Source: Clostridia bacterium (GTDB lineage: Bacteria > Bacillota > Clostridia > Christensenellales > Aristaeellaceae). From it: DNA of 49,535 nucleotides. This document shows positions 20,597 to 43,659 of the stretch, piece by piece. The notes beneath the pieces were generated by a model. It did not search any database, was not told the origin of the DNA, and saw nothing but the letters and a program-made list of their open reading frames with translations. How positions within the stretch are numbered: the stretch's first letter is position 1; every line of letters begins with the position of its first letter. Where the stretch lies: assembly GCA_017429265.1 (NCBI GenBank), contig JAFRPG010000053.1, positions 1 to 49,535 of the forward strand. Reading direction: 5' to 3'. The position numbers and the translations under genes were made by a program.

Positions 20597-20653
20597 GTCG
20601 CCTGCGGGCCGACCCGGGGGCTTTGCGATCGCCCCCGGGACCCCTTCGCTGCC
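20597..20653 (+). repeat. Two-hairpin intergenic repeat, copy A
   Basis: The first hairpin has arms GGTCG/CGACC around CCTGCGGGC. The second has arms CCCGGGGGC (20613-20621) and GCCCCCGGG (20631-20639) with loop TTTGCGATC, followed by the tail ACCCCTTCG. It lies between the convergent rdgB and glycerate kinase genes. Copies B, C and D are at 36152, 43473 and 43609; loop and tail are kept while stems change in a compensating way. Confidence 0.85.
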
Positions 20654-20699
20654 TGCGTTCAGGGTATAAGCCTTCTTATCCGAGAAAAGCATGATATCG

Positions 20700-20727
20700 A
20701 AAACCGACGGTGCGAGCCGCCGGTTTT
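20700..20727 (-). terminator. Terminator of the GH43-glycerate kinase operon
   Basis: On the minus strand AAAACCGGCGG and CCGTCGGTTTT pair fully (one G-U) around six bases, ending in TTTTC, 22 bases after the glycerate kinase stop. Confidence 0.7.
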
Positions 20728-20748
20728 CTGATGGGAAGGGGTGCCTTA

Positions 20749-21987
20749 TCATTCCGCCCGAAGCAGGGCCACCGCCACGTCGTTGACGTTGGTGCCCGTC
20801 GGGCCGGTCACGATGAGGCCGCCGACCGCCTGCAGGGCATGATAGGCGTCGTTGTCCCGCAGCACCGCGTCGGCGGACAGGCCGGCGGACGCAAGGGCCG
20901 CGCAGGTATCGCCGTCCGCATAGCCGCCCGCGGCGTCCGTGGGGCCGTCCGTGCCGTCGCTTCCGACCGAGAAGACGGCCGCGTTTTTCATTCCGGCGAT
21001 CCCGGAAGCCGCAGCGAGGGCGATCTCCTGGTTCCGTCCGCCCAGGCCCCTGCCTGTGAGCTTCACGACGGTCTCCCCGCCCGCGATGAAGGCCAGGGAC
21101 TTCCGGCTCTCCGCGTGTGTGCGGAGAATGGAGGCGAGGAAGCTGCCGGCCTCGCGCGCCTGGCAGCAGAGCCGGTCGGTCAGCAGGACGGGTTCGTAGC
21201 CGAGCTGCCTGCAGGACGCGGACGCCGCGGCGCACAGCTCACGGACACTGCCGGTGATCTGCGTGTGCACGTTGTCCAGCGACTTGGGCGTCTCCCGCCG
21301 CAGGAGCGCGAGGGCAGTATCGGACAGGTGCAGGCCGTACTTATCACAGACGCGTAGCGCGTCCTCCGACGTCGAGGAATCGGGGCAGGCCGGGCCGGAG
21401 GCGATCATGTCCAGCGGGTCGCCGAGGATATCGGAGAGCACCACGGCTTCCACCCGGGCCGGGGCTGCGTGCAGGGCGAAGCGCCCGCCCTTCACCGCGC
21501 TCAGGCGCTTGCGGACCGTGTTCATCTCCACGATGTCCGCCCCGCAGGCCAGGAGCCGGGCGGTGATGTCTTTCAGTTCCTCTTCCGGCACAAGGGGATC
21601 CTCGAACAGAGCGCTGCCGCCGCCGGAGAGAAGGAAGAGCACCGTGTCCTCCGCTGCCAGGCCGGCGGTCAGGTCGAGGGCCGCACGCGTGCCGCGGAAG
21701 GAGTTCGCGTCGGGGACCGGATGCCCGGCCTCGAAGCAGGCGCAGTTTTCGATCGGGCCCATGACGTGACCGTACTTCGTTGCCACGACGCCGCGCTCGA
21801 TGCGGCTGCCGAGGCAGTCGGCGGCGGTTTTCGCCATCTGCCAGGCCGCCTTGCCCGCAGCTACCAGCAGGACGCGCCCGGGGAAAGCCATGCCCGTGAG
21901 GGCGCGGCGGACCGCGGCGTCCGGCAGCACAGCCGCGACGGACTCCCGCACGATCCGGTCCGCATGACTTCTCAGCAGCTGATTCAT
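20749..21987 (-). CDS. Glycerate 2-kinase (MOFRL family)
   Basis: This 412-residue protein matches the GckA/TtuD-type glycerate kinase family (DUF4147 plus MOFRL domain), which phosphorylates D-glycerate to 2-phosphoglycerate and feeds glycolysis. Family segments seen are VAAGKAAWQM, the glycine-rich LSGGGSALFE, EMNTVRKRLSAVKGGRFA, ASGPACPD, and in the C-terminal MOFRL domain GRGLGGRNQEIAL and SDGTDGPTDAAGG. It is cytosolic. The start at 21987 lies behind GGGAGGTG. It follows the GH43 gene by 28 bases in the same direction, suggesting one operon, though the metabolic link between them is unclear. Older annotations call this family hydroxypyruvate reductase. Confidence 0.9.
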   Translation of the reverse strand: MNQLLRSHADRIVRESVAAVLPDAAVRRALTGMAFPGRVLLVAAGKAAWQMAKTAADCLGSRIERGVVATKYGHVMGPIENCACFEAGHPVPDANSFRGTRAALDLTAGLAAEDTVLFLLSGGGSALFEDPLVPEEELKDITARLLACGADIVEMNTVRKRLSAVKGGRFALHAAPARVEAVVLSDILGDPLDMIASGPACPDSSTSEDALRVCDKYGLHLSDTALALLRRETPKSLDNVHTQITGSVRELCAAASASCRQLGYEPVLLTDRLCCQAREAGSFLASILRTHAESRKSLAFIAGGETVVKLTGRGLGGRNQEIALAAASGIAGMKNAAVFSVGSDGTDGPTDAAGGYADGDTCAALASAGLSADAVLRDNDAYHALQAVGGLIVTGPTGTNVNDVAVALLRAE

Positions 21988-22015
21988 ATGGGCACCTCCC
22001 GGCTCACACCGGCAT

Positions 22016-23434
22016 TCAGTCGAAGGTGAAGCGATCCATCTTCGTCTCGCCTTTCTCCGGACAGCTGAAGCGGAAGTAGACCGCGTGCCGCCCGGGGAGA
22101 CAGCCGGTCACCGGGGCCGTGAAGCTGTCCGTGCCCGGCATGAGGCGGAGGTGCGCGATCTCCTTTCCGTCCCGGCTGTCCAGGCGGACGCTGACCTCCG
22201 CGGGAACGGAGGATGACGCGCGGAGCGTGACGGCCGTCGGAACGTTGGCGCCGAACTGCAGATAGCGGTATCCGGCCGCCGCGCCGTCCCGGATGCCGGT
22301 GATCGGGGCGGAGACGTCGTCACGCCGCTCGTAGACCGGGCGGATCCACGCGCCGCCCGTCAGATGGCAGGCATAGCCCGCGGAGATCCACTTCCGGGCG
22401 TCCAGACCGTTGACATGCGCGCCCTGGGAGGTCATCTCCACAGGACACGAGGCCACGGGCTCTCCGTCTTGGTAGGTCACCTTGCCCAGATAGATGCGGC
22501 CGTCCCGGCCCTGCGCCGCGTCGATGGGCTCGAGCATGGCCTGGCGGGCGAATTCGTCGGTGCCCGTGTGGCGGTGGTAGAAGATGTACCAGGTGCCGTT
22601 CACGTTCATGACCGAGCCGTGGTTGTTGCCCCAGCGGTAGGTCATGGTGCCGGTGCCGTCCGGGCTGCGGAGGATCTCGCCGCCGTTGAAGCTGATGTCC
22701 CCGCCGTCACGGAAGCCCTCGAGCGGCCGGTCGCTGACACGGTAGGAGAGGAAGCCGTTGCAGTCCTCGAAGACGCCCAGCTCCGGCACGGGCCGGTTGA
22801 CACGCCTGGAGTAGATGTAGACGTATTTCCCGAAGATCTTCCGGGGGCTGGAGGCCTCGAAGAAGGCTGTGTCGAGGTCCTCGTGCTCCGTGTCGTGAGA
22901 CCAGTCCGAGCGGCAGTGGCCCAGCGGATGGTCGTGCAGGGTGCCGGGCTTGATCGTGGCCATGTCGTCGTTGAGTTCCGCGCAGTGGGAGCCGCAGAAG
23001 CCCCAGTAGGCGTACACGCGCCCGTCGTCGTCCACCAGCACGCCCGGGTCAAAGCCGAGGTCCGTCTTCACCGGGTCGGTGAAGGGGCCCCATGGCGTCT
23101 TCGACTTCGCCACGCGGATCACCGAGCCGTGCCGTTCGGCGGCGTAGAGGTAGAAGGTGTCGCCCTTCTGCACCACGTCGGGGGCGAAGAGGATGCTTTT
23201 GTCCTCCGCCTCGTAGCAGGTGCCGTGGCAGATCCAGTCGGTCAGGTCGGTCACCGGCGCGGACCAGACCACATAATCGCGGCCGCAGTACGCGGTTTTT
23301 TCGGTGTCGTGGGAGCCGTAGACATAGACGCGGGTCTCGCCGTTGCAGGTGAAGACGCGCGGTTCGCCGTCGGGCACGTGCTCCCAGAGCGGCATGTAGG
23401 GATTGGCTCCGCGGATATAGGCTTTCTCTGCCAT
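22016..23434 (-). CDS. Family 43 glycoside hydrolase with C-terminal carbohydrate-binding domain
   Basis: The 472-residue protein has a five-bladed beta-propeller GH43 domain (about 1-310). ANPYMPLWEHVPDG leads it, GFDPGVLVDDDGRVYAYWG carries a conserved Asp, and FFEASSPRKI holds the likely general-acid Glu. A C-terminal beta-sandwich (about 335-472) resembles CBM6. GH43 enzymes are inverting arabinofuranosidases, xylosidases or galactosidases acting on plant polysaccharide side chains. No signal peptide is present, so the substrate is probably an imported oligosaccharide. ATG 23434 follows CAGGAGGG. The longer frame upstream covers the promoter. Substrate cannot be chosen by eye. Confidence 0.92.
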   Translation of the reverse strand: MAEKAYIRGANPYMPLWEHVPDGEPRVFTCNGETRVYVYGSHDTEKTAYCGRDYVVWSAPVTDLTDWICHGTCYEAEDKSILFAPDVVQKGDTFYLYAAERHGSVIRVAKSKTPWGPFTDPVKTDLGFDPGVLVDDDGRVYAYWGFCGSHCAELNDDMATIKPGTLHDHPLGHCRSDWSHDTEHEDLDTAFFEASSPRKIFGKYVYIYSRRVNRPVPELGVFEDCNGFLSYRVSDRPLEGFRDGGDISFNGGEILRSPDGTGTMTYRWGNNHGSVMNVNGTWYIFYHRHTGTDEFARQAMLEPIDAAQGRDGRIYLGKVTYQDGEPVASCPVEMTSQGAHVNGLDARKWISAGYACHLTGGAWIRPVYERRDDVSAPITGIRDGAAAGYRYLQFGANVPTAVTLRASSSVPAEVSVRLDSRDGKEIAHLRLMPGTDSFTAPVTGCLPGRHAVYFRFSCPEKGETKMDRFTFD

Positions 23435-23480
23435 CGATTGATCCCTCCTGCAGGAAATGTGATCGGGTATGCTCACTTGT

Positions 23481-23508
23481 ATCATACCATATTCCGCGGC
23501 GCTTTCAA
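23481..23508 (-). promoter_or_regulatory. Promoter of the GH43 operon
   Basis: Minus-strand TTGAAA (23508-23503) and TATGAT (23486-23481) are 16 bases apart, 47 bases before the start. Confidence 0.78.
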
Positions 23509-23568
23509 GCCCCGGCGGAGAGGAACCGCGTCCGGGGTGAAAAACCGCGCGGCACTGTGCGGAAAGCC

Positions 23569-23597
23569 TTGCGTCCCACCGCGTTTTCGTGTAGAAT
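23569..23597 (+). promoter_or_regulatory. Promoter of the esterase gene run
   Basis: TTGCGT (23569-23574) and TAGAAT (23592-23597) are 17 bases apart. It is back to back with the GH43 promoter. Confidence 0.68.
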
Positions 23598-23654
23598 GCG
23601 GGTTGGAAACGACTGACAGTGACAGGACGGATAACCGGGGAGGACGGACAAGCC

Positions 23655-24641
23655 ATGGATATGAATAAAACGCTGGGCGAATGCCTGAGCGATCCGCGCA
23701 TCGCCCCCATCGCGGGGGACGCGATCCGCTGCATGGACCTGAAGAGCGAGCCCATGTGGGACAAGACGCTCCTGCAGCTGCGGGAGGAGCACTTCGGCGG
23801 GGATCTGGCCCGCGGCTTCGACCGCCTGTTTGCGGCGGCGGAGGCAGGCGGCTGGTACTTCCCCCTCTACACGGAGGAAGAATGCGCCGGAAAACCCGAC
23901 CGCAGGGGCGTCAGCGTGGTCTGGCTTCCCTCGGAGGATGAGAAGGCGGGGGAGAGACCGTACATCCTGCTCGTGCCCGGCGGCGGATTCGTCAACGTGT
24001 GGAACCTGACCGAGGGCTGGCCGGTCGCGGCGCAGTTCAACGGCCTCGGCTACGACGTGGCCATCCTGACCTATCAGGTGACCGGGGAGGACGGCCTGCT
24101 CGCAAGGGAGATGGAGGACTTCGCGCGGGGGATCCGCCTGGTGCGGGACAGCCTCCGCAGGGGGTCGGCCAACGCGGACCGGTACATCACCTGCGGCTTC
24201 TCCGCCGGCGGCTATCTGGTGTGCCTGTGGAATGTGACGGACAGAGGATACGCCCTGCACGGCCTCCCCGGACCGCAGGCCTGCTTCCCGATCTACCCCG
24301 TGGTCACCTGGAAGCGGGACATCCGATACGAGCCCGGCTACTCCGAGTGGCTGTTCGACTGCGACATGGACACGGCGGTGAACTCCACCTTTGAGGTGGC
24401 GGCCCACGCGGAGGGTTTCCCGCCCTGCGCCATCTTCCTGGCGGGCGACGACGAGCTGGTGAACCCGGAGAATTCCCGCATGCTGGCGCGCGCCCTGGGG
24501 GCCCTGGGGATCCCGTGCAGGCTGGAGGTCGGCCCGCAGGGCGGCCACGGCTTCGCGGACGGGACCGGCATGTGCATGGCGGGTTGGACGGAGCGCGCTG
24601 TCCGCTGGTACGAGGGACTGACCGCCGCAAAAGAAGACTGA
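23655..24641 (+). CDS. Alpha/beta-hydrolase fold esterase
   Basis: This 328-residue hydrolase has the oxyanion segment PGGGF (108-112), nucleophile S183 in GFSAGG, an acid in AGDDELVN near residue 275 and the histidine in GGHGF near 296. It is similar to acetyl-esterase/BD-FAE-like enzymes that remove acyl groups from carbohydrates, which would suit the nearby GH43. A helical N-terminal cap of about 70 residues precedes the core. No signal peptide is seen. ATG 23655 lies 12 bases after GGGGAGG. It leads a seven-gene rightward run ending at the terminator near 28272. Confidence 0.86.
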   Translation: MDMNKTLGECLSDPRIAPIAGDAIRCMDLKSEPMWDKTLLQLREEHFGGDLARGFDRLFAAAEAGGWYFPLYTEEECAGKPDRRGVSVVWLPSEDEKAGERPYILLVPGGGFVNVWNLTEGWPVAAQFNGLGYDVAILTYQVTGEDGLLAREMEDFARGIRLVRDSLRRGSANADRYITCGFSAGGYLVCLWNVTDRGYALHGLPGPQACFPIYPVVTWKRDIRYEPGYSEWLFDCDMDTAVNSTFEVAAHAEGFPPCAIFLAGDDELVNPENSRMLARALGALGIPCRLEVGPQGGHGFADGTGMCMAGWTERAVRWYEGLTAAKED

Positions 24642-24657
24642 ACGGGGGATGAATACC

Positions 24658-24945
24658 ATGGAACCGATCCTGATCGCGGCTGCGGTGCTGCTGATCCTCA
24701 ACCTGATCTCCTTCGGCCTGATGGCCTATGACAAGCGCTGTGCCAAAGTCGGAAAATGGCGCATCCCGGAGAAGACCCTCTTCCTGGCCACGGCCTGCTT
24801 CGGCGGCCTCGGCGGGGTGCTGGGGATGTTCCTGTGCCGCCACAAGACGAAGCACTGGTATTTCCGGCTCTTCTTCCCCGTGATGCTGGCGGTGCAGATT
24901 GTGCTGCTCTTCCTCGGATACTGGTTCATCTTGCGGAAGGGCTGA
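24658..24945 (+). CDS. DUF1294 small membrane protein
   Basis: This 95-residue integral membrane protein has three helices, with the DUF1294 signature N-x-x-x-F-x-x-M-A-Y-D-K-R (LISFGLMAYDKRCAK) and RIPEKTLFLAT, FGGLGG and FRHKT-like CRHKTKHWYF segments. Its function is unknown in the family. ATG 24658 has nine bases to GGGGG, while ATG 24649 sits directly on that ribosome site and is unlikely. It is 16 bases behind the esterase gene. Confidence 0.87.
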   Translation: MEPILIAAAVLLILNLISFGLMAYDKRCAKVGKWRIPEKTLFLATACFGGLGGVLGMFLCRHKTKHWYFRLFFPVMLAVQIVLLFLGYWFILRKG

Positions 24946-24965
24946 GGGAAACGGGAGGTGATCGC

Positions 24966-25142
24966 ATGTACGGATCGAGGGAGCGCCGGGAGATGGACTG
25001 GGCGGACCGCCGGGAGACCGCGGACGAGGCCGCTGAGCCCACCTACCGCGACGGCAGCGTGCAGAACGAATGCTGGGCGGAGACGGGCTACACCCGCAGC
25101 GCCGGCAAAGAGGACGAAGAGACGGACGGCGGCCGGGACTGA
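24966..25142 (+). CDS. Small acidic hypothetical protein
   Basis: This 58-codon frame starts at an ATG with GGGAGGTG seven bases upstream and is rich in Glu, Asp and Arg, with two Tyr and one Cys. It has no hydrophobic segment and is probably disordered. It is tucked between the DUF1294 gene (20 bases) and the isomerase/epimerase gene (35 bases) in the same direction. The good ribosome site is the main support. I recognise no family. Confidence 0.5.
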   Translation: MYGSRERREMDWADRRETADEAAEPTYRDGSVQNECWAETGYTRSAGKEDEETDGGRD

Positions 25143-25177
25143 CGGACCGCCGGGACAATGAACTGGAGGTGCGGGGA

Positions 25178-26020
25178 ATGCTGCTGGGAGGAACCGTGGC
25201 CGGAGCGTACGGGAACCCCGCGGAGTGGGAGGAACTGCTGGTGCGGACCGGCTTCAGGGCCGTTACGGCGCCCTTCGACTGCCGGACGCCGAAGGACGAT
25301 GTGCGGGCGTATCTGGAGATCGCGAAGAAGCACGGCGTATGCATCGCGGAGGTCGGCGTGTGGCGGAACCTGATGGATCCGGACCCCGAAGCCGCCGCGC
25401 GGAACCTGGCCTATGCCAAGGACCAGCTGCGCCTGGCCGACGAGACGGGCGTGCCCTGCTGCGTCAACATCGTGGGCACCGCGGGCACCGGAGGCTGGGA
25501 CGCGGCCGACCGGAGCAACTTCACGCCCGGGACCTATGAGCGGATCATCGCCGGGATCCGGGAGATCCTCGACGAGGTGGAGCCGCGCAGGGCGTTCTAC
25601 TGCATCGAGCCCATGCCGTGGATGGTGCCGGACAGTCCGGAGGCTTATCTGCAGTTGATCCGCGACGTGGACCGGCCGCAGTTCGGCGCGCACATGGACT
25701 TCGTCAACATGATCAACTGCCCCCGGCGGTACCTGGCGCCGGAGGACTTCATCGAAACCTGTTTCCGACTGCTGGCCCCGTACATCAAAAGCACGCACAT
25801 CAAGGACACCCGGATGCATCCCACGCGCCTGACGGCCATCCTCGAGGAATGCTCCCCCGGGGAGGGCACGCTCGACTATGAGCGGGTCCTGCGGATCATG
25901 GACCGGTACCTCCCGCCGGACGCGCCGGTCCTGCTGGAGCACATGCAGACCGCGGAGGAGTACGATCAGGCCTACCGGTATGTGAAAGCCGCCGCGGACC
26001 GGATCGGCATTCCGGTGTGA
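25178..26020 (+). CDS. Sugar phosphate isomerase/epimerase-like TIM barrel
   Basis: This 280-residue protein of the xylose-isomerase-like (AP-endonuclease 2) superfamily has metal-site acids in FYCIEPMPWM, HMDFVNM, HIKDTR and LLEHMQTAEEY. Members isomerise or epimerise sugars and inositols (IolE/IolH-like) using a divalent metal. ATG 25178 lies behind GGAGG and opens the first beta strand (MLLGGTVAGAYG). The next gene, an FMN enzyme, starts 18 bases later. The substrate is unknown, and no inositol or sugar regulator is adjacent. Confidence 0.86.
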   Translation: MLLGGTVAGAYGNPAEWEELLVRTGFRAVTAPFDCRTPKDDVRAYLEIAKKHGVCIAEVGVWRNLMDPDPEAAARNLAYAKDQLRLADETGVPCCVNIVGTAGTGGWDAADRSNFTPGTYERIIAGIREILDEVEPRRAFYCIEPMPWMVPDSPEAYLQLIRDVDRPQFGAHMDFVNMINCPRRYLAPEDFIETCFRLLAPYIKSTHIKDTRMHPTRLTAILEECSPGEGTLDYERVLRIMDRYLPPDAPVLLEHMQTAEEYDQAYRYVKAAADRIGIPV

Positions 26021-26038
26021 GCGAAGGAGGAAGACAGC

Positions 26039-26926
26039 ATGGGACGCGCACCGTCGGGGGATTCCGTTGCCATCAACCGCCGTTATCTGGATCACCTGCT
26101 GGTCGAGAGCCGGATCGTGGGGGCCGTACGGCCTTCAACCGAAACCGTGCTCTTCGGTCATCGCTTTGAGACCCCGGTCACGACCGGGGCGCTGAGCCAC
26201 CTCAAGCCGGGCATGGCGGCCTTCGCGGCCGGCGCGAAGGAGGCGGGCGCCGCCTGCTTTATCGGCATGGGCAGCTGCCGGGAACTGGAGGACGTCCTGG
26301 CCACCGGGGCCGCGGTCATCAAGATCATCAAGCCTTACGCGGATCCGGACGAGATCCTCAGCCGGCTTGCGTGCGCCGAGCGGAACGGGGCCGTCGCCGT
26401 GGGCATGGACGTGGAGCACGCGGTGAACGTGCAGGACGACAGGGACTCCGTGGTCGTGGGCTGTCAGATGAAGCTTCCCACGAAAGAGGACCTGAAGCGG
26501 TATATCTCCGCCACGCGCCTGCCCTTTGTCATCAAGGGGGCGCTGAGCGTCCGGGATGCCCTGACCTGCGCGGAACTCGGCTGTGCGGGCATCGTGCTCA
26601 GCCATCACAACGGGCTGATGCGCTGGGCAGTGCCGCCGGCCATGCTGCTGAAGGACATCCGGAAGGCCGTCGGGAACAGCCTGACCGTGATCGCGGACGG
26701 GGGCATCGAGGACGGGTTTGACGCCTTCAAGGCGCTGGCTCTCGGCGCGGACGCCGTGTCCGTCGGCCGTCCGCTGATGGCTCCGCTGGAGGAAGGCGGC
26801 CCGTCCGCCATGGCGCGGACGCTGCGCGCCTTCACCGACGAACTGCGGGCGATGATGCTCCGCACCGGGACACCGGATCTTGCGCACATGGATCCCACGG
26901 TGATCCATGAGGCGCCCTGGAACTGA
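26039..26926 (+). CDS. FMN-dependent alpha-hydroxy-acid dehydrogenase-like protein
   Basis: The 295-residue TIM-barrel flavoprotein matches the lactate oxidase/glycolate oxidase family. Lysine K166 in FVIKGAL and the phosphate-binding IADGGIEDGFDAFKALALGADAVSVGRPL segment are clear. The usual S-N-H-G-G-R catalytic motif reads S188-H-H190-N-G-L: a histidine is kept but the substrate arginine is replaced by Leu. It is also shorter than typical oxidases (about 350-380). A hydroxy-acid substrate is therefore uncertain. ATG 26039 follows AAGGAGG. It is placed between an isomerase/epimerase and an EamA transporter. Confidence 0.84.
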   Translation: MGRAPSGDSVAINRRYLDHLLVESRIVGAVRPSTETVLFGHRFETPVTTGALSHLKPGMAAFAAGAKEAGAACFIGMGSCRELEDVLATGAAVIKIIKPYADPDEILSRLACAERNGAVAVGMDVEHAVNVQDDRDSVVVGCQMKLPTKEDLKRYISATRLPFVIKGALSVRDALTCAELGCAGIVLSHHNGLMRWAVPPAMLLKDIRKAVGNSLTVIADGGIEDGFDAFKALALGADAVSVGRPLMAPLEEGGPSAMARTLRAFTDELRAMMLRTGTPDLAHMDPTVIHEAPWN

Positions 26927-26937
26927 AAGGCGAACCG

Positions 26938-27840
26938 ATGAAGACAACCCTGGACAGACCGGCCGCCGGCGTCGAGCGGATGAAGTACATCCTGGCTGTG
27001 GTGCTCTACGGCACGATCGGATATTTCCTCCGCTTCGTCTCCCTGCCGAGCGAGCTGGTGGCCATGTGCCGCGGCCTGATCGGCGGGGCCTTTATCCTGC
27101 TCTTCCAGCTGGCGCGGGGGAAGAAGCCGGATCTGCGGGCCATCCGCGCGAACGCCCGGTGGCTGGTGATCTCCGGCATCTGCCTGGGCCTCAACTGGAT
27201 CTTTCTCTTCGCGGCCTATATGCGCACGACGGTGGCGATCGCGAGCCTGTGCAACTATATGGCGCCGCTGATCGTCGTGCTCGTCGCGCCGCTGGTCCTG
27301 CGCGAGCGGCCGGAGGTGCGGAAGCTGCCGTGCGTGGCCGCGGCCCTGGTCGGGATCGTGCTGGTCTCCGGCGTGCTCGAGGGCGGGGGAGGCAACCCCG
27401 GCGGCGTGGCGCTGGGCCTGGCCGCGGCCGCGAGCTTCGTGTGCATCGTGCTGTGCAACCGGAAGCTGCGGGGCATCAACGCCATGGACCGCTCCCTGGT
27501 GCAGCTGCTGCTCTCGGCGGTGACGATCCTGCCCTATGTGCTGGTGAACAACCGCGGGAACGTGATCACCGTCGACACGCGGTCGGTCCTGATCGTTCTG
27601 ATGCTCGGCGTGGTGCACACGGGCGCGGCCTACTGCCTGTACTTCAGCGGGATGAGCAGCCTGCCGGTGCAGACCGTGGCGATCCTCGGCTACCTTGAGC
27701 CGGTGGTCTCGGTAATCTGCTCCGCCCTGCTGCTGAACGAGACGATGTCCCCGCTGGGCTGGCTCGGCGCCGGGCTGGTGATCGCGGCGGCCGCCGTGAG
27801 CGAGCTGATCCCGGGCCGGGCCGCGGAAGAGAAACAGTAA
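26938..27840 (+). CDS. EamA/DMT-family transporter
   Basis: This 300-residue protein with ten predicted membrane helices is arranged as two EamA repeats (first about 15-140, second about 150-290). The second repeat's GYLEPVVSVICSALLLNETM segment is typical of drug/metabolite transporters that export amino acids or other small metabolites. The start at 26938 has a weak AAAGGCG; a Met at residue 15, just before the first helix, is an alternative. It follows the FMN enzyme by 11 bases. Substrate and direction are not evident. Confidence 0.9.
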   Translation: MKTTLDRPAAGVERMKYILAVVLYGTIGYFLRFVSLPSELVAMCRGLIGGAFILLFQLARGKKPDLRAIRANARWLVISGICLGLNWIFLFAAYMRTTVAIASLCNYMAPLIVVLVAPLVLRERPEVRKLPCVAAALVGIVLVSGVLEGGGGNPGGVALGLAAAASFVCIVLCNRKLRGINAMDRSLVQLLLSAVTILPYVLVNNRGNVITVDTRSVLIVLMLGVVHTGAAYCLYFSGMSSLPVQTVAILGYLEPVVSVICSALLLNETMSPLGWLGAGLVIAAAAVSELIPGRAAEEKQ

Positions 27841-27861
27841 GCGATGACGGGAGGATGCGCC

Positions 27862-28287
27862 ATGAAGCCGTATGAGCGCCGCGTGCAGTACTACGAGACG
27901 GACCGGATGGGGGTCGCCCATCACGCCAACTACATCCACTGGATGGAGGAGGCCCGCATCGACCTGATGGAGCGGATGGGTTTTCCCTATGCCGCCATGG
28001 AGGAGAAGGGAATCGTCTCGCCGGTCAAATCACTCACCTGCGAGTACCTGCGCTCCTGCACCTTCGGCGACACGCTGACGGTCGAGGGCGCGGTGGACAG
28101 CTTCAACGGCGTGGTGATGACGATCCGCTACACCATGCGCAATGCAGGCGGAGACACCGTGTGCAAAGCGCTGTCCGAGCATGTGTTCCTGACAAAGGAC
28201 GGCCGCTTCGCCCGTGTCCGGCGGGAGATGCCGGACTTCTGCGCCGCGGTGGAAGCCATGCTGGCAGATAAAAAAGACAGCCCGTGA
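27862..28287 (+). CDS. Hot-dog fold acyl-CoA thioesterase (YbgC/FadM-like)
   Basis: The 141-residue single hot-dog domain has the 4HBT signature Y-x-E-T-D14-x-M-G-V-A-H-H-A-N-Y (residues 10-24), where D14 is the expected catalytic residue. It cleaves acyl-CoA or acyl-ACP thioesters. ATG 27862 is chosen because GGGAGG lies seven bases upstream; the in-frame ATG at 27844 would place that ribosome site inside the gene. It is last in the run, and its final codons form the left arm of the terminator. Acyl specificity is unknown. Confidence 0.87.
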   Translation: MKPYERRVQYYETDRMGVAHHANYIHWMEEARIDLMERMGFPYAAMEEKGIVSPVKSLTCEYLRSCTFGDTLTVEGAVDSFNGVVMTIRYTMRNAGGDTVCKALSEHVFLTKDGRFARVRREMPDFCAAVEAMLADKKDSP

Positions 28288-28338: not shown

Positions 28339-28345
28339 CGTATAT

Positions 28346-34400: not shown

Positions 34401-34457
34401 CAAGGCGGCGGATGCGGGCATGCCCCGCGGACAGCATACAGAACGGAGGACGGGTCT

Positions 34458-36059: not shown

Positions 36060-36072
36060 TCACCGCACAAGC

Positions 36073-36126: not shown

Positions 36127-36151
36127 GAGAAGGCCAGACACCGACACAGGC

Positions 36152-36206
36152 TGCGAAGGGACCCCGGGGGCGATCGCAAAGCCCTCGGGTATGCCCGAGG
36201 CAGGCG
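36152..36206 (-). repeat. Two-hairpin intergenic repeat, copy B
   Basis: Read on the minus strand it matches copy A closely, with loop TTTGCGATC (36180-36172), arms CCCGAGGGC/GCCCCCGGG and tail CCCTTCGCAGCC. It lies between the convergent amidohydrolase and TetM-like genes. One A-C mismatch in this stem is a G-U pair on the plus strand, so the other strand folds better. The upstream hairpin is less clear than in the other copies. Confidence 0.82.
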
Positions 36207-36228
36207 TTTCCCCGCATTGGCGAGCCGG

Positions 36229-38154
36229 TCAGATATCGAAGATCCCGCCCTCGAGGGCGCTGCGGGCCGCGAGGATGTAGCGGCTGGTGTCCAGCGGGTC
36301 CACATTGCGGCGCGGGGCCGTGACCGTCATCCCGGGCGGGCATTCCCGGTAGCCGTGGAGGCGGATGCTCATGCCGCCGCGTCCGGCCGTCGCCTGTGCC
36401 AGGCGGATCGGATAGTCCATGCTCTCCGACACCGGGACCAGGGCGCGCAGGGAAGCGAAGTCTTCCGCGCTCTGCACCTCGGTCACCTCGCCCCGCATGG
36501 CGTTCACGTCGCTGATGATCCGCCCGGTGTACTCCGGCGGGACGCGCAGGCGAATCTCGAGGATCGGCTCGAGCAGCACGCTCCCGCCGGCGCGCAGCCC
36601 GTCCTGGATGGCCCAGGGCGTGGCGACGATGAAGTCCAGCGGGTGGGTGTGGAACTGGTGGTGGCTGCCGCCGGTCAGCGTGATGTCGACATCCGTGACC
36701 TGCCAGCCCAGCCGTCCCTGCGCGAGGGCGAGGGGCAGGGCCTGCTCCACCTGGTGCTGGTAGCGGGGGAGAATGTCCCGCACCGGGACCTCCGAGTGAT
36801 ACGTCACGCCGCTGCCCCTCGGCGCGGGCCGGATTTCGAAGCGCAGGATCGCCCAGCAAGGCTTGGGCATCGTATAGGCGCAGAAGCCCTCGGCGGGACG
36901 TGCGACGGTCTCCCGGTAAATGACGGTGGGGCTGGTGAACCGGGCATCCAGGCCAAAACGGTTCTTCAGCGCATCCTGGAGGATCTCCAGCTGGATCGCA
37001 CCCATGGCGTCGAGGCACAGCTCCCCGGTGGCGCGCAGATGGCGCACCGAGAGCAGGGGGTCCTCGCCGGCCAGCGCGCGGCAGGCGTCGGCCAGGTCCT
37101 TCGCACGGGCCGGATCGGCGGGTTCCGCGCGGACGGTGGTCAGCGGGCTGCGCAGGGCACCGGGCTGCACCTTGCGGGGGAGCAGGCCCGGGTCGCCGAG
37201 GATATGGCCGATCTTCATCGCGCCCACGCCGTAGACGATGCCGATGTCCCCGGCGGAGAGGCTTCCGGCGTCCGACCCGTCCACGCCGCGGATCTGCGTG
37301 ATCTTGGCCTGTACGCCCGCGGGCTCTCCGGTCAGCGGATCGATGCGCCCGGGCAGGGTGATCGCCGCGCGGTTCTCCAGCGTCCCGCCGAAGAGCCGGA
37401 TCCACAGGCCACGTCCCAGCAGCCGGTCATAGCCGGCCGAGAAGGCGACGCCGCTGAGCGCTGTCTGCGAGGTGTCCGGCGGCGGGAGGAAGGCGAGGAC
37501 GGCGTCCAGCACTTCCCCGATGCCCTGACCGCGCAGGGCCGAACCGGTCAGCACGGGGAAGACCTCTCCCTGCCGGGCCAGGATTGGGAGCCGCCCGCGG
37601 AGCTCCGCGTCGGGGATCGTCTCCCCGTTCAGGTAGCGCTCCATCAGCGCGTCGTCGGCGTCGCAGAGGGTCTCCAGCAGGCCGTCCGGGTCGTCCGTCC
37701 GGACGGCGCGCTGCGTGAGCCGGCGGCGGATCTGCGCCGTCACGCGCTCCGCGTCCACACCCTCGCGGTCCATCTTGTTGATGAAGAAGAACAGCGGCAG
37801 CCCCTGACTCCGGAGCGCCTCAAAGAGCAGCTCGGTCTGCGGCTGCACGCCCTCCACCCCGCAGACCACGATCACCGCACCGTCCAGCGCCCAGAGGGAG
37901 CGCTCGATCTCGGCGGAAAAGTCGGTGTGGCCGGGGGTGTCGATCAGGCGGATGGACTCGCCGCGCCAGGAGAGCTGCACGCAGCTGGCGCGCACGGAGA
38001 TGCCCCGCTGCCGCTCGACGGCGAGGGTATCGGTGTGGGCGGTGCCGCTGTCCACGCTGCCTGCGGCGCGGATCGCCCCGGCGCAAAGCAGAAGCTGCTC
38101 CGACAGGGTGGTCTTGCCCGCGTCCACGTGGGCAAAGATACCGATGTTGCGCAT
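36229..38154 (-). CDS. TetM/TetO-like ribosomal protection GTPase homologue
   Basis: This 641-residue translation-factor GTPase has the length and domain order of ribosomal protection proteins. The G1 motif is AHVDAGKTT (8-16), with ERQRGIS as switch I, DTPGH at 72-76 and NKMD at 126-129. Domains II-V follow with TGELCLDAMGAIQLEIL and the domain IV segment TDVDITLTGGSHHQFHTHPLDF. Tet proteins use GTP to remove tetracycline from the ribosome. Divergence from TetM is large and codon use looks native, so it may be an old chromosomal paralogue. Resistance cannot be claimed from sequence. Confidence 0.88.
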   Translation of the reverse strand: MRNIGIFAHVDAGKTTLSEQLLLCAGAIRAAGSVDSGTAHTDTLAVERQRGISVRASCVQLSWRGESIRLIDTPGHTDFSAEIERSLWALDGAVIVVCGVEGVQPQTELLFEALRSQGLPLFFFINKMDREGVDAERVTAQIRRRLTQRAVRTDDPDGLLETLCDADDALMERYLNGETIPDAELRGRLPILARQGEVFPVLTGSALRGQGIGEVLDAVLAFLPPPDTSQTALSGVAFSAGYDRLLGRGLWIRLFGGTLENRAAITLPGRIDPLTGEPAGVQAKITQIRGVDGSDAGSLSAGDIGIVYGVGAMKIGHILGDPGLLPRKVQPGALRSPLTTVRAEPADPARAKDLADACRALAGEDPLLSVRHLRATGELCLDAMGAIQLEILQDALKNRFGLDARFTSPTVIYRETVARPAEGFCAYTMPKPCWAILRFEIRPAPRGSGVTYHSEVPVRDILPRYQHQVEQALPLALAQGRLGWQVTDVDITLTGGSHHQFHTHPLDFIVATPWAIQDGLRAGGSVLLEPILEIRLRVPPEYTGRIISDVNAMRGEVTEVQSAEDFASLRALVPVSESMDYPIRLAQATAGRGGMSIRLHGYRECPPGMTVTAPRRNVDPLDTSRYILAARSALEGGIFDI

Positions 38155-38198
38155 GGCGTTCCTCCGTATGCCCGCTCCGGGGCGGGATCGATGAGCAT

Positions 38199-38227
38199 AT
38201 CATCCGGGTTTGCGGCGGCAGTGTCAA
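38199..38227 (-). promoter_or_regulatory. Possible promoter of the TetM-like gene
   Basis: Minus-strand TTGACA (38227-38222) and GATGAT (38204-38199) are 17 bases apart, 45 bases before the start. The -10 is weak. No leader peptide like that of tetM was seen. Confidence 0.5.
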
Positions 38228-38343
38228 GGGGCGGAATGTTCCGGATCTGTTTTTTCCGGTCCGCGAGGACTGCAGGAAAGCGAGAGGACACGGCGAATAC
38301 ACCCTGTGCGGCGGTCCCGGCCGGGGAAGGAGAGCGTGACAGA

Positions 38344-38787
38344 ATGACGATCCGTGTGATGAAGATCTCAGACTATGATGCGGTGTACGCCCTGTGGATG
38401 TCCTGCAGGAACATGGGGTTCAACAATCTCGACGACTCGCGGGAGGGCGTGGCCCGCTTCCTCGCCCGCAATCCGGCGACCTCCTTCGTGGCCGTCTCGG
38501 ACGGCGGTGAACTGGAGGGCATCATCCTGGCCGGACACGACGGGCGCAGGGGCTATATCTACCACATGTCGGTCCGCGAGGACTGCCGCCGCAGGGGCAT
38601 CGGTTCCTCTCTCGTGCAGGCTTCCCTGGAAGCACTGAAGGCCGAGGGCATCAACAAGGCGGCCCTGCTGGTCTTCCGGCGGAACGGGACGGGCAATGCC
38701 TTCTGGGAGCGCCAGGGGTTCACTGTCCGCGAGGACGTGGCTTACCGCAACAGGGAACTGACGAAGCTGGTCCGCATCGACACCTGA
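38344..38787 (+). CDS. GNAT-family N-acetyltransferase
   Basis: The 147-residue single GNAT domain has the acetyl-CoA loop R-R-R-G-I-G-S-S-L (about residues 80-90, DCRRRGIGSSLVQASL) and the C-terminal NAFWERQGFTVRED motif. It transfers an acetyl group to an amine of unknown identity. ATG 38344 follows GGAAGGAGAG. It is a lone gene between the TetM-like GTPase, which diverges from it, and the ABC exporter, which converges on it. A role in drug or metabolite modification is only suggested by that neighbourhood. Confidence 0.89.
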   Translation: MTIRVMKISDYDAVYALWMSCRNMGFNNLDDSREGVARFLARNPATSFVAVSDGGELEGIILAGHDGRRGYIYHMSVREDCRRRGIGSSLVQASLEALKAEGINKAALLVFRRNGTGNAFWERQGFTVREDVAYRNRELTKLVRIDT

Positions 38788-38808
38788 TCCCGATCGGGTC
38801 AACAGAGC

Positions 38809-38849
38809 AGCGGCGGCCGGGCGGGGTGCATGCCCCGACGGCCGCCGCT
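38809..38849. terminator. Hairpin between GNAT and ABC exporter genes
   Basis: AGCGGCGGCCG and CGGCCGCCGCT pair perfectly, with an inner GGGGTGCATGCCCC stem. The T-tract is short (CTTTGCG), so termination is likely but not certain. Confidence 0.6.
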
Positions 38850-38858
38850 TTGCGTGTG

Positions 38859-40670
38859 TCACGCGGCTTCCTCCTTCACCTGGGCGGTGTAGAGCTGATA
38901 ATAGAGTCCGCGCTTTGCCATCAGCTCCTCGTGGCTGCCCATCTCGGCGATCCCCTTGTTGCTGATGTAGAGGATGCGGTCGCAGTTCTTGATCGTGGAC
39001 AGACGGTGCGCCACGATGATGCTGGTGCGGCCGCGGAGCATCTCCCGGATGCCCTCCTGCAGGAGCTTCTCCGTCTGCGTGTCGATGGAGGAGGTGGCCT
39101 CGTCGAGGATCAGGATGGCGGGATCGGACAGGAGGGTCCGCGCGAAGGCGACCAGCTGGCGCTCGCCCTGGCTCAGGTTGCCGCCGCGCTCCTTGACCTC
39201 GGTCTGGTATCCCTGGGGCAGACGGCGGATGAACTCGTCCGCCCGCACGCGGCGCGCGGCTTCGCGCACCTCGCTGTCGGTGGCGTCGAGCCGCCCGTAG
39301 CGGATGTTGTCCATCAGCGTGCCGGAGAAGATGAAGCTGTCCTGCAGCATGATGCCCAGCTGGGAGCGCAGGGAATGCAGGGTGACCCGGCTGATGTCAT
39401 GGGCCTGCCCGTCCTTGCCGTGGAGGAGGATCCGGCCGCCGTTGAGGTTGTAGAAGCGGCTGAGCAGGTTGATGACCGTGCTCTTGCCGGCGCCGGTCGG
39501 GCCCACGAGGGCGATGCTCTCCCCGGCTTTCACGTGCAGGTCCATGTGCTCCAGAACGTTCAGCCCTTCCTCATAGGCGAAGGTCACGTCCTCGTAGTCG
39601 ACCTCGCCGCTGATGGGCGGCAGGTCCTCCGCGCCGGGAACGTCGTCGACGGTCACGGGCTCGTCCATGGTCTCGAAGATGCGCTCGAGGTAGGCGATGT
39701 TGTTGACGAAGGAGTTGTAGATGTTGGCGAGGTTCGTGATGGGCTGCCAGAAGCGGCTGACGTAGGCGGTCATGGCGAGGATGACGCCTGTGGAGGCCAT
39801 CCGCCCGCCGCCGATCCAGTACACGGAGGCGATATAGACGAAGGTCAGCACGAGCTGGGTCATCGTCTCGCTCGAGAGCCACACCGTATTGCTGATGCGC
39901 ACGGCCCGCATCCAGCCCTGCCGGCAGGCGACAGCCAGCCGCTCCATGATGGAGATGTTGACCTCCTGACGGTCAAAGAGCTGGCTGACGCGGACGCCGT
40001 CGATGGACTCCGCGAGGTAGGCGTTGTAGTTGCTGTTCTTGTTGCTCATGTTCTGCCAGGCCCTGCGCTGGCGGGGCTTGATCAGGATGATGATGCCCAC
40101 GAAGACCGGGAGGCCGGAGACGATCACGGCGGCCAGGGTGGGGTCGGTGACGAACATGAACACCACGATGAAGACCAAGGTGATGATCTCGATGATCATG
40201 TTGATGATGCCGTTGGAGAGGATGTCCGACACGGAGTTGACATAGTTGATGACGCGCACCAGGATCTTGCCCGCCGGACGGCTGTCGTAGTAGCTGAACG
40301 GCAGCTTCTGCAGGTGGGCGAAGAGGTCGCTGCGGATGTCGTGGATGATCTCCTGGCTCACGTGCGCCATCATCCGGGAGCGGACGGTGGTGAAGACGAT
40401 GCTCAGGCCGATGATGCCCACGAACAGGGCCGCCATGCCGCCGATGCGCCCCATGTTCTCCGGCGTGTTCCCCGCCGGGATCGCCTCGTCGATGACCCAC
40501 TGGGTGATCTTGGGGATGAAGAGGGTCGCCACGCTGGCCAGGGCGCTCATCAGCAGGGCCAGGACCATCTTGCCCTTGTGCCGGGAGACATACTTCCAGG
40601 CGCGTCGGAGGTGCCGGAACTGAAACGGTGTCTCCAGACGCTCGTCGACGTCAAATTTGTTTCTCGCCAT
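38859..40670 (-). CDS. ABC exporter half-transporter, catalytic NBD
   Basis: The 603-residue protein has six membrane helices (about 35-320) fused to an ATP-binding domain. It has Walker A G390-T398 (GPTGAGKST), a signature LSQGE at 499-503, and Walker B ILILDE ending at E524, the catalytic glutamate. It matches multidrug/lipid exporters of the BmrA/TM288 type. It starts one base after the stop of the partner half-transporter, so the two are made together and should form a heterodimer. Substrate is unknown. The divergent AraC regulator may control it. Confidence 0.94.
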   Translation of the reverse strand: MARNKFDVDERLETPFQFRHLRRAWKYVSRHKGKMVLALLMSALASVATLFIPKITQWVIDEAIPAGNTPENMGRIGGMAALFVGIIGLSIVFTTVRSRMMAHVSQEIIHDIRSDLFAHLQKLPFSYYDSRPAGKILVRVINYVNSVSDILSNGIINMIIEIITLVFIVVFMFVTDPTLAAVIVSGLPVFVGIIILIKPRQRRAWQNMSNKNSNYNAYLAESIDGVRVSQLFDRQEVNISIMERLAVACRQGWMRAVRISNTVWLSSETMTQLVLTFVYIASVYWIGGGRMASTGVILAMTAYVSRFWQPITNLANIYNSFVNNIAYLERIFETMDEPVTVDDVPGAEDLPPISGEVDYEDVTFAYEEGLNVLEHMDLHVKAGESIALVGPTGAGKSTVINLLSRFYNLNGGRILLHGKDGQAHDISRVTLHSLRSQLGIMLQDSFIFSGTLMDNIRYGRLDATDSEVREAARRVRADEFIRRLPQGYQTEVKERGGNLSQGERQLVAFARTLLSDPAILILDEATSSIDTQTEKLLQEGIREMLRGRTSIIVAHRLSTIKNCDRILYISNKGIAEMGSHEELMAKRGLYYQLYTAQVKEEAA

Positions 40671-40671
40671 T

Positions 40672-42417
40672 TCAGACCGCCTCCTGCATCGGGATGCCGT
40701 ACTGCAGGCAGTAGGTCTGCCAGTAGTAGCCCCGCTTTTCGAGCAGTTCCCGGTGGGTGCCCTGCTCCGTGATCCGCCCGTCCTCCAGCACGAGGATCAG
40801 GTCCGCGTCCCGCATGGACGAGATGCGCTGGGCGATGATGAACTTGGTGCATGCGAAGGGCAGCTCCCGCAGCTGGCGCTGGATGTACTGCTCGGTCTCG
40901 CTGTCCACGGCGGAGGTCGTGTCGTCCATGACCAGGATGCTCGGCTTCACGGCCATGGCCCGGGCCAGGGCGACGCGCTGGCGTTGTCCGCCGGAGAGGC
41001 CCACGCCGCGCTCGCCGATGATCGTGTCGTAGCCCTCGGGCAGCTTGTCGATGAACTCGGCGGCGTCCGCCCGGCGGGCAAAGTCCTTCACCCCGTCCAG
41101 GCTCAGGTCCTGCGCGCCGAAGGCGATGTTGCCCTCCACGGTGTCGGAGAAGAGGAAGACGTCCTGGGTGGCGGTGCCGATGCGTGAGCGGAGCTGATGC
41201 AGCTTCCACTGCCGCACGTCGCAGCCGTCCACGCGGATCTCGCCCTCCGTGGCGTCATAGAAGCGGGCCAGCAGGTGGATCAGGGTCGTCTTGCCGCTGC
41301 CGGTGGGGCCCATGACGGCCACGGTCTGCCCGGCCTTCACGGAGAAGGTCACGTCCTTCAGGATCGGCTTGGAGTCGATGGAGAAGGAGACGCGGTCGAA
41401 GTCGATATCACCCCGCATCTCCGGGTGATCCGCGGCGTCGGGTGCGTCCGTGATCTCGGGCTTGGCGTACTGCAGTTCCATCACCTTCGCGGCGGAGGTG
41501 GAGAAGCGCTGGAGGTCGTTGATCAGGTTGCCCAGCTCACGCATGGGGTTCGAGACCGCCCAGCTCAGGCCGGTGAAGATCGCCAGCTGCCCCACCGAGT
41601 CCAGCTCGCCGGTGATGACGAAGATCCCGCCCACGAACACCGTCACCAGCTGGATGGCGTTGACCAGCAGCTCGATCATCGGGAAGAAGGTCAGCCAGCA
41701 CTTGTTGATCTGCAGGTTGGCGTCCCGGAAGGCGATGTTTTTCTGCTCGAAGCGCGCGCGCTCGTGATCCTCGCGGGCGAAGGCCTTCACCACGCGGTTG
41801 CCGGCGATGTTCTCCTGGGCGGCCGTGTTCATGTCCGAGAGCTTCTCGCGCATGGCGACGAAGCGCGGACGCACGCGCTTGGAGAGGAGCTTCGTGATCA
41901 TCATCAGGATCGGCGTGATCACGATCAGCATCAGGGTCAGCTTCAGGTTGACGGTCATCAGATAGACCGTGGAGAACACGAAGGTGCAGACCGCGTCGAT
42001 GATGCGGTAGTTGATGTAGGACAGGAAGTGCCGGCACCAGTCGAGGTCGGCGCTCATGCGGGTCATCAGGTCGCCGGTGCGGTGGCTGTCGAAGAAGCGC
42101 ATGTCGTTGTACTGCATCTTCGAAAACAGGCTGCGGCGCAGGTTGAAGATCACGTTCTGCGAGTCGGTCTCAAGAAACATGATCATCAGGTACCGGAGAC
42201 CCTCACGGCCCAGCTTCACCGTCAGCATGACGGCCAGCAGGGGCAGCAGGGGATCGGGATTGCGCGCGGTGATCACCTCGTCGATGATCCGCTGCGAGAC
42301 AGTGGGGTTCACCAGCAGCAGCATGCAGGTAAAGACGCTGATGCACAGGGCGATGACGTGGCGGCGGCGGTACTTCGGGTCCATGTTGTCCCAGAGCCAC
42401 CGGATTTGCTTGAGCAC
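40672..42417 (-). CDS. ABC exporter half-transporter, degenerate NBD
   Basis: This 581-residue partner has six membrane helices and an ATP-binding domain with GPTGSGKTT, LSGGQ and Walker B LVMDD, where Asp replaces the catalytic Glu. Heterodimeric exporters such as TM287/TM288 and BmrC/BmrD have just this pattern: one consensus and one degenerate ATP site. GTG 42417 is chosen because AAGGAG lies nine bases upstream and the protein then begins with the LKQIRWLW elbow helix; the longer ATG frame has no ribosome site. It is first in the two-gene operon. Confidence 0.93.
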   Translation of the reverse strand: MLKQIRWLWDNMDPKYRRRHVIALCISVFTCMLLLVNPTVSQRIIDEVITARNPDPLLPLLAVMLTVKLGREGLRYLMIMFLETDSQNVIFNLRRSLFSKMQYNDMRFFDSHRTGDLMTRMSADLDWCRHFLSYINYRIIDAVCTFVFSTVYLMTVNLKLTLMLIVITPILMMITKLLSKRVRPRFVAMREKLSDMNTAAQENIAGNRVVKAFAREDHERARFEQKNIAFRDANLQINKCWLTFFPMIELLVNAIQLVTVFVGGIFVITGELDSVGQLAIFTGLSWAVSNPMRELGNLINDLQRFSTSAAKVMELQYAKPEITDAPDAADHPEMRGDIDFDRVSFSIDSKPILKDVTFSVKAGQTVAVMGPTGSGKTTLIHLLARFYDATEGEIRVDGCDVRQWKLHQLRSRIGTATQDVFLFSDTVEGNIAFGAQDLSLDGVKDFARRADAAEFIDKLPEGYDTIIGERGVGLSGGQRQRVALARAMAVKPSILVMDDTTSAVDSETEQYIQRQLRELPFACTKFIIAQRISSMRDADLILVLEDGRITEQGTHRELLEKRGYYWQTYCLQYGIPMQEAV

Positions 42418-42500
42418 GGCGAAAGTCTCCTTGCTGTCGGGATGTGCGGCGCGGCGAAATAAAAACACGTCGGCCGCGCATCATTCTACAACAGAATTAC

Positions 42501-42529
42501 TTGCATTTCCGCTGAAAATGGGGTATGAT
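42501..42529 (+). promoter_or_regulatory. Promoter of the AraC-family gene
   Basis: TTGCAT (42501-42506) and TATGAT (42524-42529) are 17 bases apart. A TAGAAT at 42488-42483 on the other strand may serve the ABC operon, so regulator binding here could affect both. Confidence 0.85.
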
Positions 42530-42571
42530 TTCATAGCAATACGGATTTATCAACAGACAGGGAGAAATACC

Positions 42572-43405
42572 ATGACGAAAGTGACGGCGAACGCCCAGGG
42601 AATCGACGGCGTTCACACCGAGACCAGAGTCCGTGATCCGAATTATGTGATGGCGGGGCACCACTGCCACAGCTGCTACGAGCTGTTTTACGTCTCCGAC
42701 GGCGAATGCCGGTTCCTGATCAACGACCGCTTTCAGGATCTGAAGGCCGGGGACTTCATCCTCATCCCTCCCATGGTCCTGCACTACACGCGCTACGTGT
42801 TCGGTTCCTGCACGCGGACGGTGATCCTGTTCCGCCGCCAGGATATCCCGGAAGACGTGCAGCGCTGCATGCCGGGCATGGAGCGGTTCTTCTCCGAGAC
42901 GAGCGTCTTTCAGGTGCCCGCGGATCACATGCCGGAGGTGCAGGCCTGCCTGGAGAGCCTGGCGGCGGAGGAGCGCATGAGCGACGTCTGCTCCCTGCCG
43001 ATGCGGCGCTGCGACCTGATCCGCCTGTTCCTGATGTGCAGCCGGACCTGCCGCTTCCACCCCGGTTCTTTGAGCGACATCCAGACAACGGATCAGCAGA
43101 TCCTGAACGCCGCCCGCTATATCAGCGAGCACTATACCCAGCCGATCACGACAAAGGACGTGGCCCAGGCCGTGGGGTTCAGCCCCAACTATCTGAGCCG
43201 GAAGTTCCACATGTCCGCCGGCATCGGCCTGCACGAGTACATCGTCTTTGTCCGTCTGCACCACGCGGCGCAGGAACTGATCTCCACCGAAGACTCCATC
43301 ACCGCCATTGCCCTCAGGTGCGGCTTCTCCGACAGCAATTACTTCAAGGACTCGTTCAAGAAGAAATACGGCGTCACGCCCAGACAGTACAGGAAGCTGT
43401 CCTGA
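42572..43405 (+). CDS. AraC-family transcriptional regulator
   Basis: This 277-residue regulator has an N-terminal cupin effector domain (HHCHSCYELFYVSDGECRFLI; LKAGDFILIPPMVLHY) and a C-terminal pair of helix-turn-helix motifs (TTKDVAQAVGFSPNYLSRKFH and ITAIALRCGFSDSNYFKDSFKKKYGVTPRQYR). The cupin usually senses a sugar or small metabolite. ATG 42572 follows CAGGGAG. It is divergent from the ABC exporter operon with about 150 bases between starts, so it is a natural candidate to control it. The ligand is unknown. Confidence 0.93.
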   Translation: MTKVTANAQGIDGVHTETRVRDPNYVMAGHHCHSCYELFYVSDGECRFLINDRFQDLKAGDFILIPPMVLHYTRYVFGSCTRTVILFRRQDIPEDVQRCMPGMERFFSETSVFQVPADHMPEVQACLESLAAEERMSDVCSLPMRRCDLIRLFLMCSRTCRFHPGSLSDIQTTDQQILNAARYISEHYTQPITTKDVAQAVGFSPNYLSRKFHMSAGIGLHEYIVFVRLHHAAQELISTEDSITAIALRCGFSDSNYFKDSFKKKYGVTPRQYRKLS

Positions 43406-43472
43406 CCATACGAACGATATGCAAAAAAGGGTTCTTCACGTTTGGTTAGGGAAACCCCATTGATGAGGGAAT

Positions 43473-43527
43473 GCGCCTGCGGGCGCACCAGAGGGCTTTC
43501 CGATCGCCCTCTGGACTCCTTCGGGGC
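43473..43527 (+). repeat. Two-hairpin intergenic repeat, copy C
   Basis: The first hairpin has arms TGCGC/GCGCA around CTGCGG. The second has arms CCAGAGGGC (43488-43496) and GCCCTCTGG (43506-43514) with loop TTTCCGATC, then the tail ACTCCTTCGGGGCC. Confidence 0.87.
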
Positions 43528-43608
43528 CGTTCCGTTAATGATAGGCTCTGGAATTACAAGGTTTTATCAACATTACTTTGTCCAATACCAAACAAGGAAG
43601 ACGCGAAA

Positions 43609-43659
43609 CCGAAGGGTCCAGGGGCGATCGGAAAGCCCCTGGCGCGTCCATAGGCGCGG
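43609..43659 (-). repeat. Two-hairpin intergenic repeat, copy D
   Basis: Read on the minus strand: GCGC/GCGC around CTATGGAC, then arms CCAGGGGC (43642-43635) and GCCCCTGG (43625-43618) with loop TTTCCGATC and tail ACCCTTCGG. It is inverted relative to copy C. Confidence 0.86.

Follow-up and report, generated by a model that had tools for sequence, protein, structure and literature searches.

A repeat family with a covarying predicted pseudoknot in clostridial genomes and phage contigs

The window analysed here, a 49,535-nt stretch of a Clostridia bacterium (contig JAFRPG010000053.1, positions 1–49,535), contains four copies, A to D, of a short intergenic repeat. An initial annotation had described them as a family of two-hairpin repeats, and a direct check of the window sequence recovered all four in place, with the second stems of A, C and D fully paired (CCCGGGGGC/GCCCCCGGG, CCAGAGGGC/GCCCTCTGG and CCAGGGGC/GCCCCTGG, respectively). 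The exact core GGGCTTTSCGATCGCCC matched the window four times without mismatch; the chance expectation was 0.98 matches at up to 3 mismatches, and four were reached in 1 of 100 shuffles. Copies A to D sit between convergent genes, C and D being flanked by a gene and a tRNA gene.

The unit consists of a stem (stem 1 or P3, mostly 7–9 bp), the loop TTT-SCGR-TC, a linker and the tail TTCG-S', and can be preceded by a second hairpin, P2. Copy A (20598–20649, + strand) has P2 at 20598–20612 with a bulged C, P3 at 20613–20621/20631–20639, the loop at 20622–20630, the linker ACCCC at 20640–20644 and the tail TTCGC at 20645–20649; loop bases GCGA (20625–20628) can pair with TCGC (20646–20649). Its 50–63-bp core was up to 97–98% identical to matches in two other genomes of the genus (G011 and G005), with nearby genes at 66–78%. 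Copy C (43472–43524, + strand) comprises P2 at 43472–43487, P3 at 43488–43496/43506–43514, the loop at 43497–43505, the linker ACTCC at 43515–43519 and the tail TTCGG at 43520–43524. Copy D (43609–43658, − strand) comprises P2 at 43643–43658, P3 at 43635–43642/43618–43625, the loop at 43626–43634, the linker ACCC at 43614–43617 and the tail TTCGG at 43609–43613. The two-hairpin layout said to be common to all four holds for A, C and D but not for B (36153–36189, − strand). That copy retains P3, loop, linker GTCCC and tail TTCGC; its P3 (CCCGAGGGC/GCCCCCGGG) has a single A-C mismatch, its first hairpin is rearranged, and it is a decayed copy.

Single-sequence folds had z-scores of −1.88 (A), 0.01 (B), −2.94 (C) and −1.42 (D), so that folding alone is no proof of structure. 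Covariation was clear. In 64 distinct 37-nt cores 97.1% of the pair cells were standard pairs, which bears out in many more copies the earlier observation that stem changes stay paired; the covariation score of 0.393 fell to 0.156 on shuffling and did not exceed 0.133 on sliding, and stem 1 had both-sided changes at 5 of 9 pairs. Distinct 55-nt copies that include P2 (n = 39) had 99.5% standard pairs and both-sided changes at 12 of 20 pairs. The covariation of the P3 stem and the P2 hairpin is real. P2 is optional, being found in 191 of 280 copies, with the loop TGCG in 158. At L075, L085, L112 and L144 another hairpin (GGGGCTCTGCCCC-like) replaces P2 ahead of an unchanged P3 and tail. An outer stem closing around P2 and P3, appealing by eye, was rejected, as the longest complementary run hardly exceeded that of shuffled sequence (4.09 versus 3.88, standard deviation 0.08, in 110 copies from other genomes; 3.86 versus 3.94 in 72 copies from the window's own genome, G000).

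The loop, TTT-S-CGR-TC, had been taken as fixed, but S varies together with S' in the tail. Among 383 copies whose stem has at least 7 bp, the two were complementary in 380 (308 C-G and 72 G-C); most of these copies came from scans that required the tail and left S and S' each independently C or G. A complete scan of viral contigs without a tail requirement gave a cleaner test: TTCG was present in 97 of 99 long-stem copies, and S and S' were complementary in 97 of 97 (82 C-G, 15 G-C). The tail was missing from 14 of the 20 short-stem matches of the same scan. When the two variable bases were left unconstrained, loop-tail pairing was fitted by 107 of 107 long-stem copies, many of these loci coming from tail-constrained scans and a further 16 stretches from G000. 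Of the four pairs of the loop-tail helix, one shows a both-sided change (C-G to G-C), another changes from A-U to G-U, and the remaining two are invariant. Given the complementarity of S and S', the loop is one strand of a pseudoknot, and the predicted fold, an H-type pseudoknot in which loop SCGR pairs with tail TCGS', is well supported.

The linker between P3 and TTCG follows the stem both in length and in bases. Among 336 copies with 7–9 stem pairs, 248 have a linker four shorter than the stem (linker 3 in 32 of the 46 copies with stem 7, linker 4 in 52 of the 81 with stem 8, and linker 5 in 164 of the 209 with stem 9). Across 44 distinct stem/linker pairs in which the stem length is at least 9, the linker bases track the 5' strand of the stem one to one and in parallel register. 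Linker positions y1 and y2, next to TTCG, were fixed as C by most scan patterns, and the informative positions are y3–y5; the diagonal values of mutual information were 0.764, 0.876 and 0.774, no other value exceeded 0.23, and none of 5000 permutations reached any of the three diagonal values. A stem G goes with a linker C (24/26, 31/31 and 12/13 at the three positions) and a stem A with a linker A or T (18/18, 13/13 and 23/24), the 5' strand of the stem being purine at the first two linker-matched positions in 44 of 44 pairs and at the third in 37 of 44. Such parallel tracking predicts that the linker lies along stem 1 as a third strand.

Further copies in the genome, which the initial annotation anticipated, were abundant. 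The core occurred in G000 at 439 sites with at most 1 mismatch and at 543 with at most 2, evenly split between the strands; a reversed-pattern control gave 2 matches at up to 2 mismatches. It was present in 11 of the 12 genomes of the genus, G000 included, with 439, 48, 288, 1, 2, 57, 32, 0, 6, 4, 6 and 313 copies in G000 to G011, respectively, and a genome of another genus of the same family (G019) held 41. At least one core match was found in 15 of the 40 genomes searched. Covariance-model scans, in which filtering was stringent and only a small number of candidates was scored in each genome, were positive for 1 of 398 genomes of the phylum (G000) and 2 of 200 of the order (G000 and one other). 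Outside the genus the distribution is patchy. The exact pattern including the tail was found in at least 103 contig stretches, the titles among the matches listed all being of clostridial metagenome-assembled genomes (MAGs), many from rumen or gut, and in 78 stretches of IMG/VR. No match was found in the plasmids searched, and a search for annotated phages gave 10 matches, all unannotated virome records. The MAG sets overlap (G001, G002, G005, G011, G019 and the contig collection), and duplicates were removed by sequence context or flank clusters. These hundreds of copies, together with the covariation, support the earlier proposal of a structured RNA or REP-like (repetitive extragenic palindrome) element spread through the genome. 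What that proposal had missed were the phage copies, the mobile element carrying C and D, the pseudoknot and the way in which the linker follows the stem.

That mobile element is a 271-bp miniature inverted-repeat transposable element (MITE) at 43430–43700, with ends GGTTCTTCACG and CGTGAAGAACC. Comparison of its flanks in the window identified target-site duplications on the left (CAAAAAAG, 43422–43429) and on the right (CAAAAAGG, 43701–43708), with 7 of 8 letters matching. It was matched at 37 other places in G000 (E 2e-60 or better), and G009 and G010 each had one place with both ends matching. Both ends were present at 8 or more of 11 letters in 13 of 21 copies examined, and the flanking 8-mers of these 13 agreed at 6.38 of 8 positions against 4.13 in shuffled sequence (1 of 2000). 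Among 116 copies of the unit in 324 kb there were 34 inward pairs, 14 of which had both MITE ends at up to 3 mismatches; many inverted unit pairs in G000 are parts of the MITE.

ISL3 elements have terminal ends of this kind and 8-bp target duplications. In G008 an ISL3-family frame terminates within an inverted GGTTCTTCACGGAAAGTTAGGGAAAG, which is identical to the 26-nt end of the MITE at L421:1119-1405; the right end of the window's own MITE differs at 3 of 26 positions. The same ISL3 3' end occurs as fragments in G002 and G011, 3 of the 4 in G011 lying at contig starts, as might be expected if assemblies break at multi-copy elements. C and D form the two inverted arms of this MITE, the ends of which match an ISL3-family element of the genus. 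It resembles ISL3-family MITEs in the terminal inverted repeats shared with an ISL3 transposase frame of the genus, the 8-bp target duplications and the gene-free interior, but differs in holding two structured units that occur outside the MITE too. In G001, G002, G004, G008 and G011 the matches listed covered the unit alone (about 40–70 bases), without MITE flanks, which points to other carriers or to independent movement of the unit. Copy A in the window is likewise a solitary unit, of 55–60 nt. At L446–L449, in G019, the units lack P2 and often form inward pairs spaced by about 127 nt; their flanks differ from those of the ISL3-type MITE and perhaps belong to another carrier. In 16 stretches (L416–L431), 26 of 62 GGYTCTTCACG-like sites lay more than 160 nt from any core; these are perhaps unit-less relatives of the MITE, or due to chance.

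Host copies are mostly intergenic: of 146, 8 lay within predicted genes. A position between convergent genes, described for every copy in the window, is not general. It was found for 25 of 41 copies with both neighbours called in a G000 sample (overlapping loci kept), but in the other genomes for only 14 of 73 such host flank clusters, with 6 divergent and 53 co-directional. Rough clustering of the neighbouring genes, with the top groups judged by eye, gave no recurrent mobility gene beside the units.

Phage copies mostly face with the genes. On viral contigs 39 flank clusters were sense and 13 antisense (p 0.0004). Of 40 sense clusters, 18 started between −4 and +5 nt from the stop codon of the upstream gene, 7 of them exactly at it, against 3 of 44 in hosts; of 15 antisense viral clusters, 2 had a 3' end no more than 5 nt from the stop codon that it faces. 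Of 30 upstream genes near phage units, 20 were scanned, giving 13 with functional PHROG names (major head 4, portal 2, and one each of terminase, baseplate, head-tail adaptor, tape measure, major tail, HNH endonuclease and primase/helicase), 3 in families of unknown function and 4 without a match. Where 11 phage sites could be aligned with a relative, a unit followed the same gene in 5, and in four of these the stem had changed and the linker matched it. Copies within a single contig usually differ. Readthrough of the phage stop codons was considered and rejected, the next in-frame stop being mostly near and scattered. L242 (unit at 671–697, − strand) and L226 are viral contigs whose flanking genes are about 99% alike; where L242 has the unit, L226 has a short gap with other letters, which indicates replacement and not clean insertion. 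We read the unit as mobile cargo in hosts and, in phages, as a putative RNA element, and infer from its placement a block 3' of the cistron.

Our preferred reading, to which we give roughly an even chance, is that A to D belong to a repeat family forming a covarying H-type pseudoknot with a predicted third strand, likely to act as an RNA block at message ends, C and D being arms of a MITE with ISL3-type ends. As RNA, the unit would form a compact knot downstream of the stop codon, hard to unwind from the 3' side; the knot would slow 3'-to-5' exonucleases and thereby bound the cistron. In bacterial genomes the unit would multiply by being carried on DNA transposons to intergenic sites where it does no harm, and with two inverted arms transcripts from either side would meet a correctly facing knot. 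In phages, the likely function of such an RNA would be to mark or shield the end of the message. More tentatively, and with a probability well below even, the unit could be a new RNA class: a triple-helix pseudoknot that starts from the stop codon and sets the 3' boundary of a phage cistron, taken up by transposons (here an ISL3-type MITE) as two-way cargo, which would have spread hundreds of copies through clostridial genomes and rendered the insertions tolerable to the host.

Several results weigh against an RNA block carried by an ISL3-type MITE. In hosts there was no strand bias (25 versus 28 flank clusters with or against co-directional neighbours), and G-U pairs were not in excess, either in P3 (8 G-T versus 10 A-C in 280 copies; 8 versus 9 in host and 0 versus 1 in viral copies) or in P2 (1 G-T versus 7 A-C), so that the host copies give no indication of selection at the RNA level. 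In phages, the gaps between genes are short, which makes closeness to a stop codon partly expected, and in 6 of the 11 aligned phage sites the unit was absent from the relative. No ISL3 transposase gene was found in G000 (109 contigs, about 7% missing), so that for this genome we can only infer the mobiliser of the MITE. The missing strand bias and G-U excess would be natural if the fold acted as single-stranded DNA, its hairpin and loop-tail knot being recognised by a single-strand transposase or replication protein, as with IS200/IS605 ends and REPs, and no RNA role existing; G002 and G011 also hold solitary units that share no flanks, which would fit. This we regard as rather unlikely, in view of the strand bias and the stop-codon start in phages, of direct repeats around the unit that barely exceed those of shuffled sequence (4.07 versus 3.91 outside G000, 3.96 versus 3.83 inside), and of the absence of a Y1 transposase (PF01797) from G000 (92.8% complete), G001, G002, G005, G011 and G019, the six genomes with at least 41 copies.

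The same search bears on a classical family of REPs or bacterial interspersed mosaic elements (BIMEs) whose REP-associated tyrosine transposase (RAYT) was lost or unassembled. Such families are described, in the available parts of PMC2817692 and PMC3733652, as short palindromic intergenic repeats, often more than 100 per genome, occurring as singles and inverted pairs, and the present element shares this layout, the high copy number and the alternating orientation. The RAYT gene that the initial annotation had suggested looking for was not found in G000, and PF01797 was present in G007, which holds no core copies. A GTAG/CGTC tag occurred in 0 of 280 copies at three tested positions, and the element adds phage stop-codon sites, a loop-tail pseudoknot and a stem-tracking linker, the last two not described for REPs in those parts of the two papers. 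As both the tag test and the RAYT test failed, the element is not classed as REP/BIME, and we consider such an origin improbable. Intrinsic terminators of the usual kind, or plain hairpins in which CUUCGG forms a UUCG tetraloop, would account for the GC-rich stems, the convergent sites in the window and the mostly CTTCGG tail. They are very improbable here: the stem is followed by no U-run but, in 97 of 99 viral copies, by the linker and TTCG; in the 72 copies with G in the loop the tail reads CTTCGC, which breaks the UUCG closing pair and keeps the loop-tail pair; and the covariation of linker and stem contradicts them. Least probable of all is the guide-RNA scaffold of a TnpB-like nuclease (right-end element RNA, reRNA). 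It would explain the transposon link and the pseudoknot, both features of reRNAs (PMC10711439, PMC11061315), but the present element is much shorter, has no Rfam match at gathering scores, and no TnpB domain (PF07282) was found in any of the 12 genomes of the genus, control genomes being positive. A reverse transcriptase was likewise absent from G000 and found in only 2 of the 12 genomes (G003 and G009), neither rich in copies.

The unit also resembles compact H-type pseudoknots with loop-stem triples, known from luteovirus frameshift sites and phage T4 gene 32, in its stem, its loop-tail helix and a linker predicted to run along the stem. Unlike these, it exists in hundreds of copies with linker length and bases matched one to one to the stem, and no slippery site was seen. 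Rfam gave no match to the element at gathering scores in the window or in 15 related loci, and four weak matches below gathering. Three core sequences, in both orientations, were not found in the literature searched, which also held nothing on REPs with a pseudoknot and a MITE or on REPs with RAYT in Firmicutes; the earlier statement that no family with this loop is described thus stands. The role of REP-like repeats is still debated, and the present repeat carries a readable tertiary fold. Its loop-tail knot and linker rule separate intact from decayed copies and define exact mutants, and its position at stop codons of tailed-phage structural genes connects message ends with a repeat that is mobile. 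Most of the hosts are clostridia of rumen and gut that have not been cultured and are represented by MAGs.

Apart from the repeats, Rfam at gathering scores annotated only a SAM (S-adenosylmethionine) riboswitch in the window (RF00162, 82.2 bits; 48599–48716, + strand) and two tRNA genes, both on the − strand, at 4732–4805 and 43746–43828, the second of which adjoins the MITE carrying C and D.

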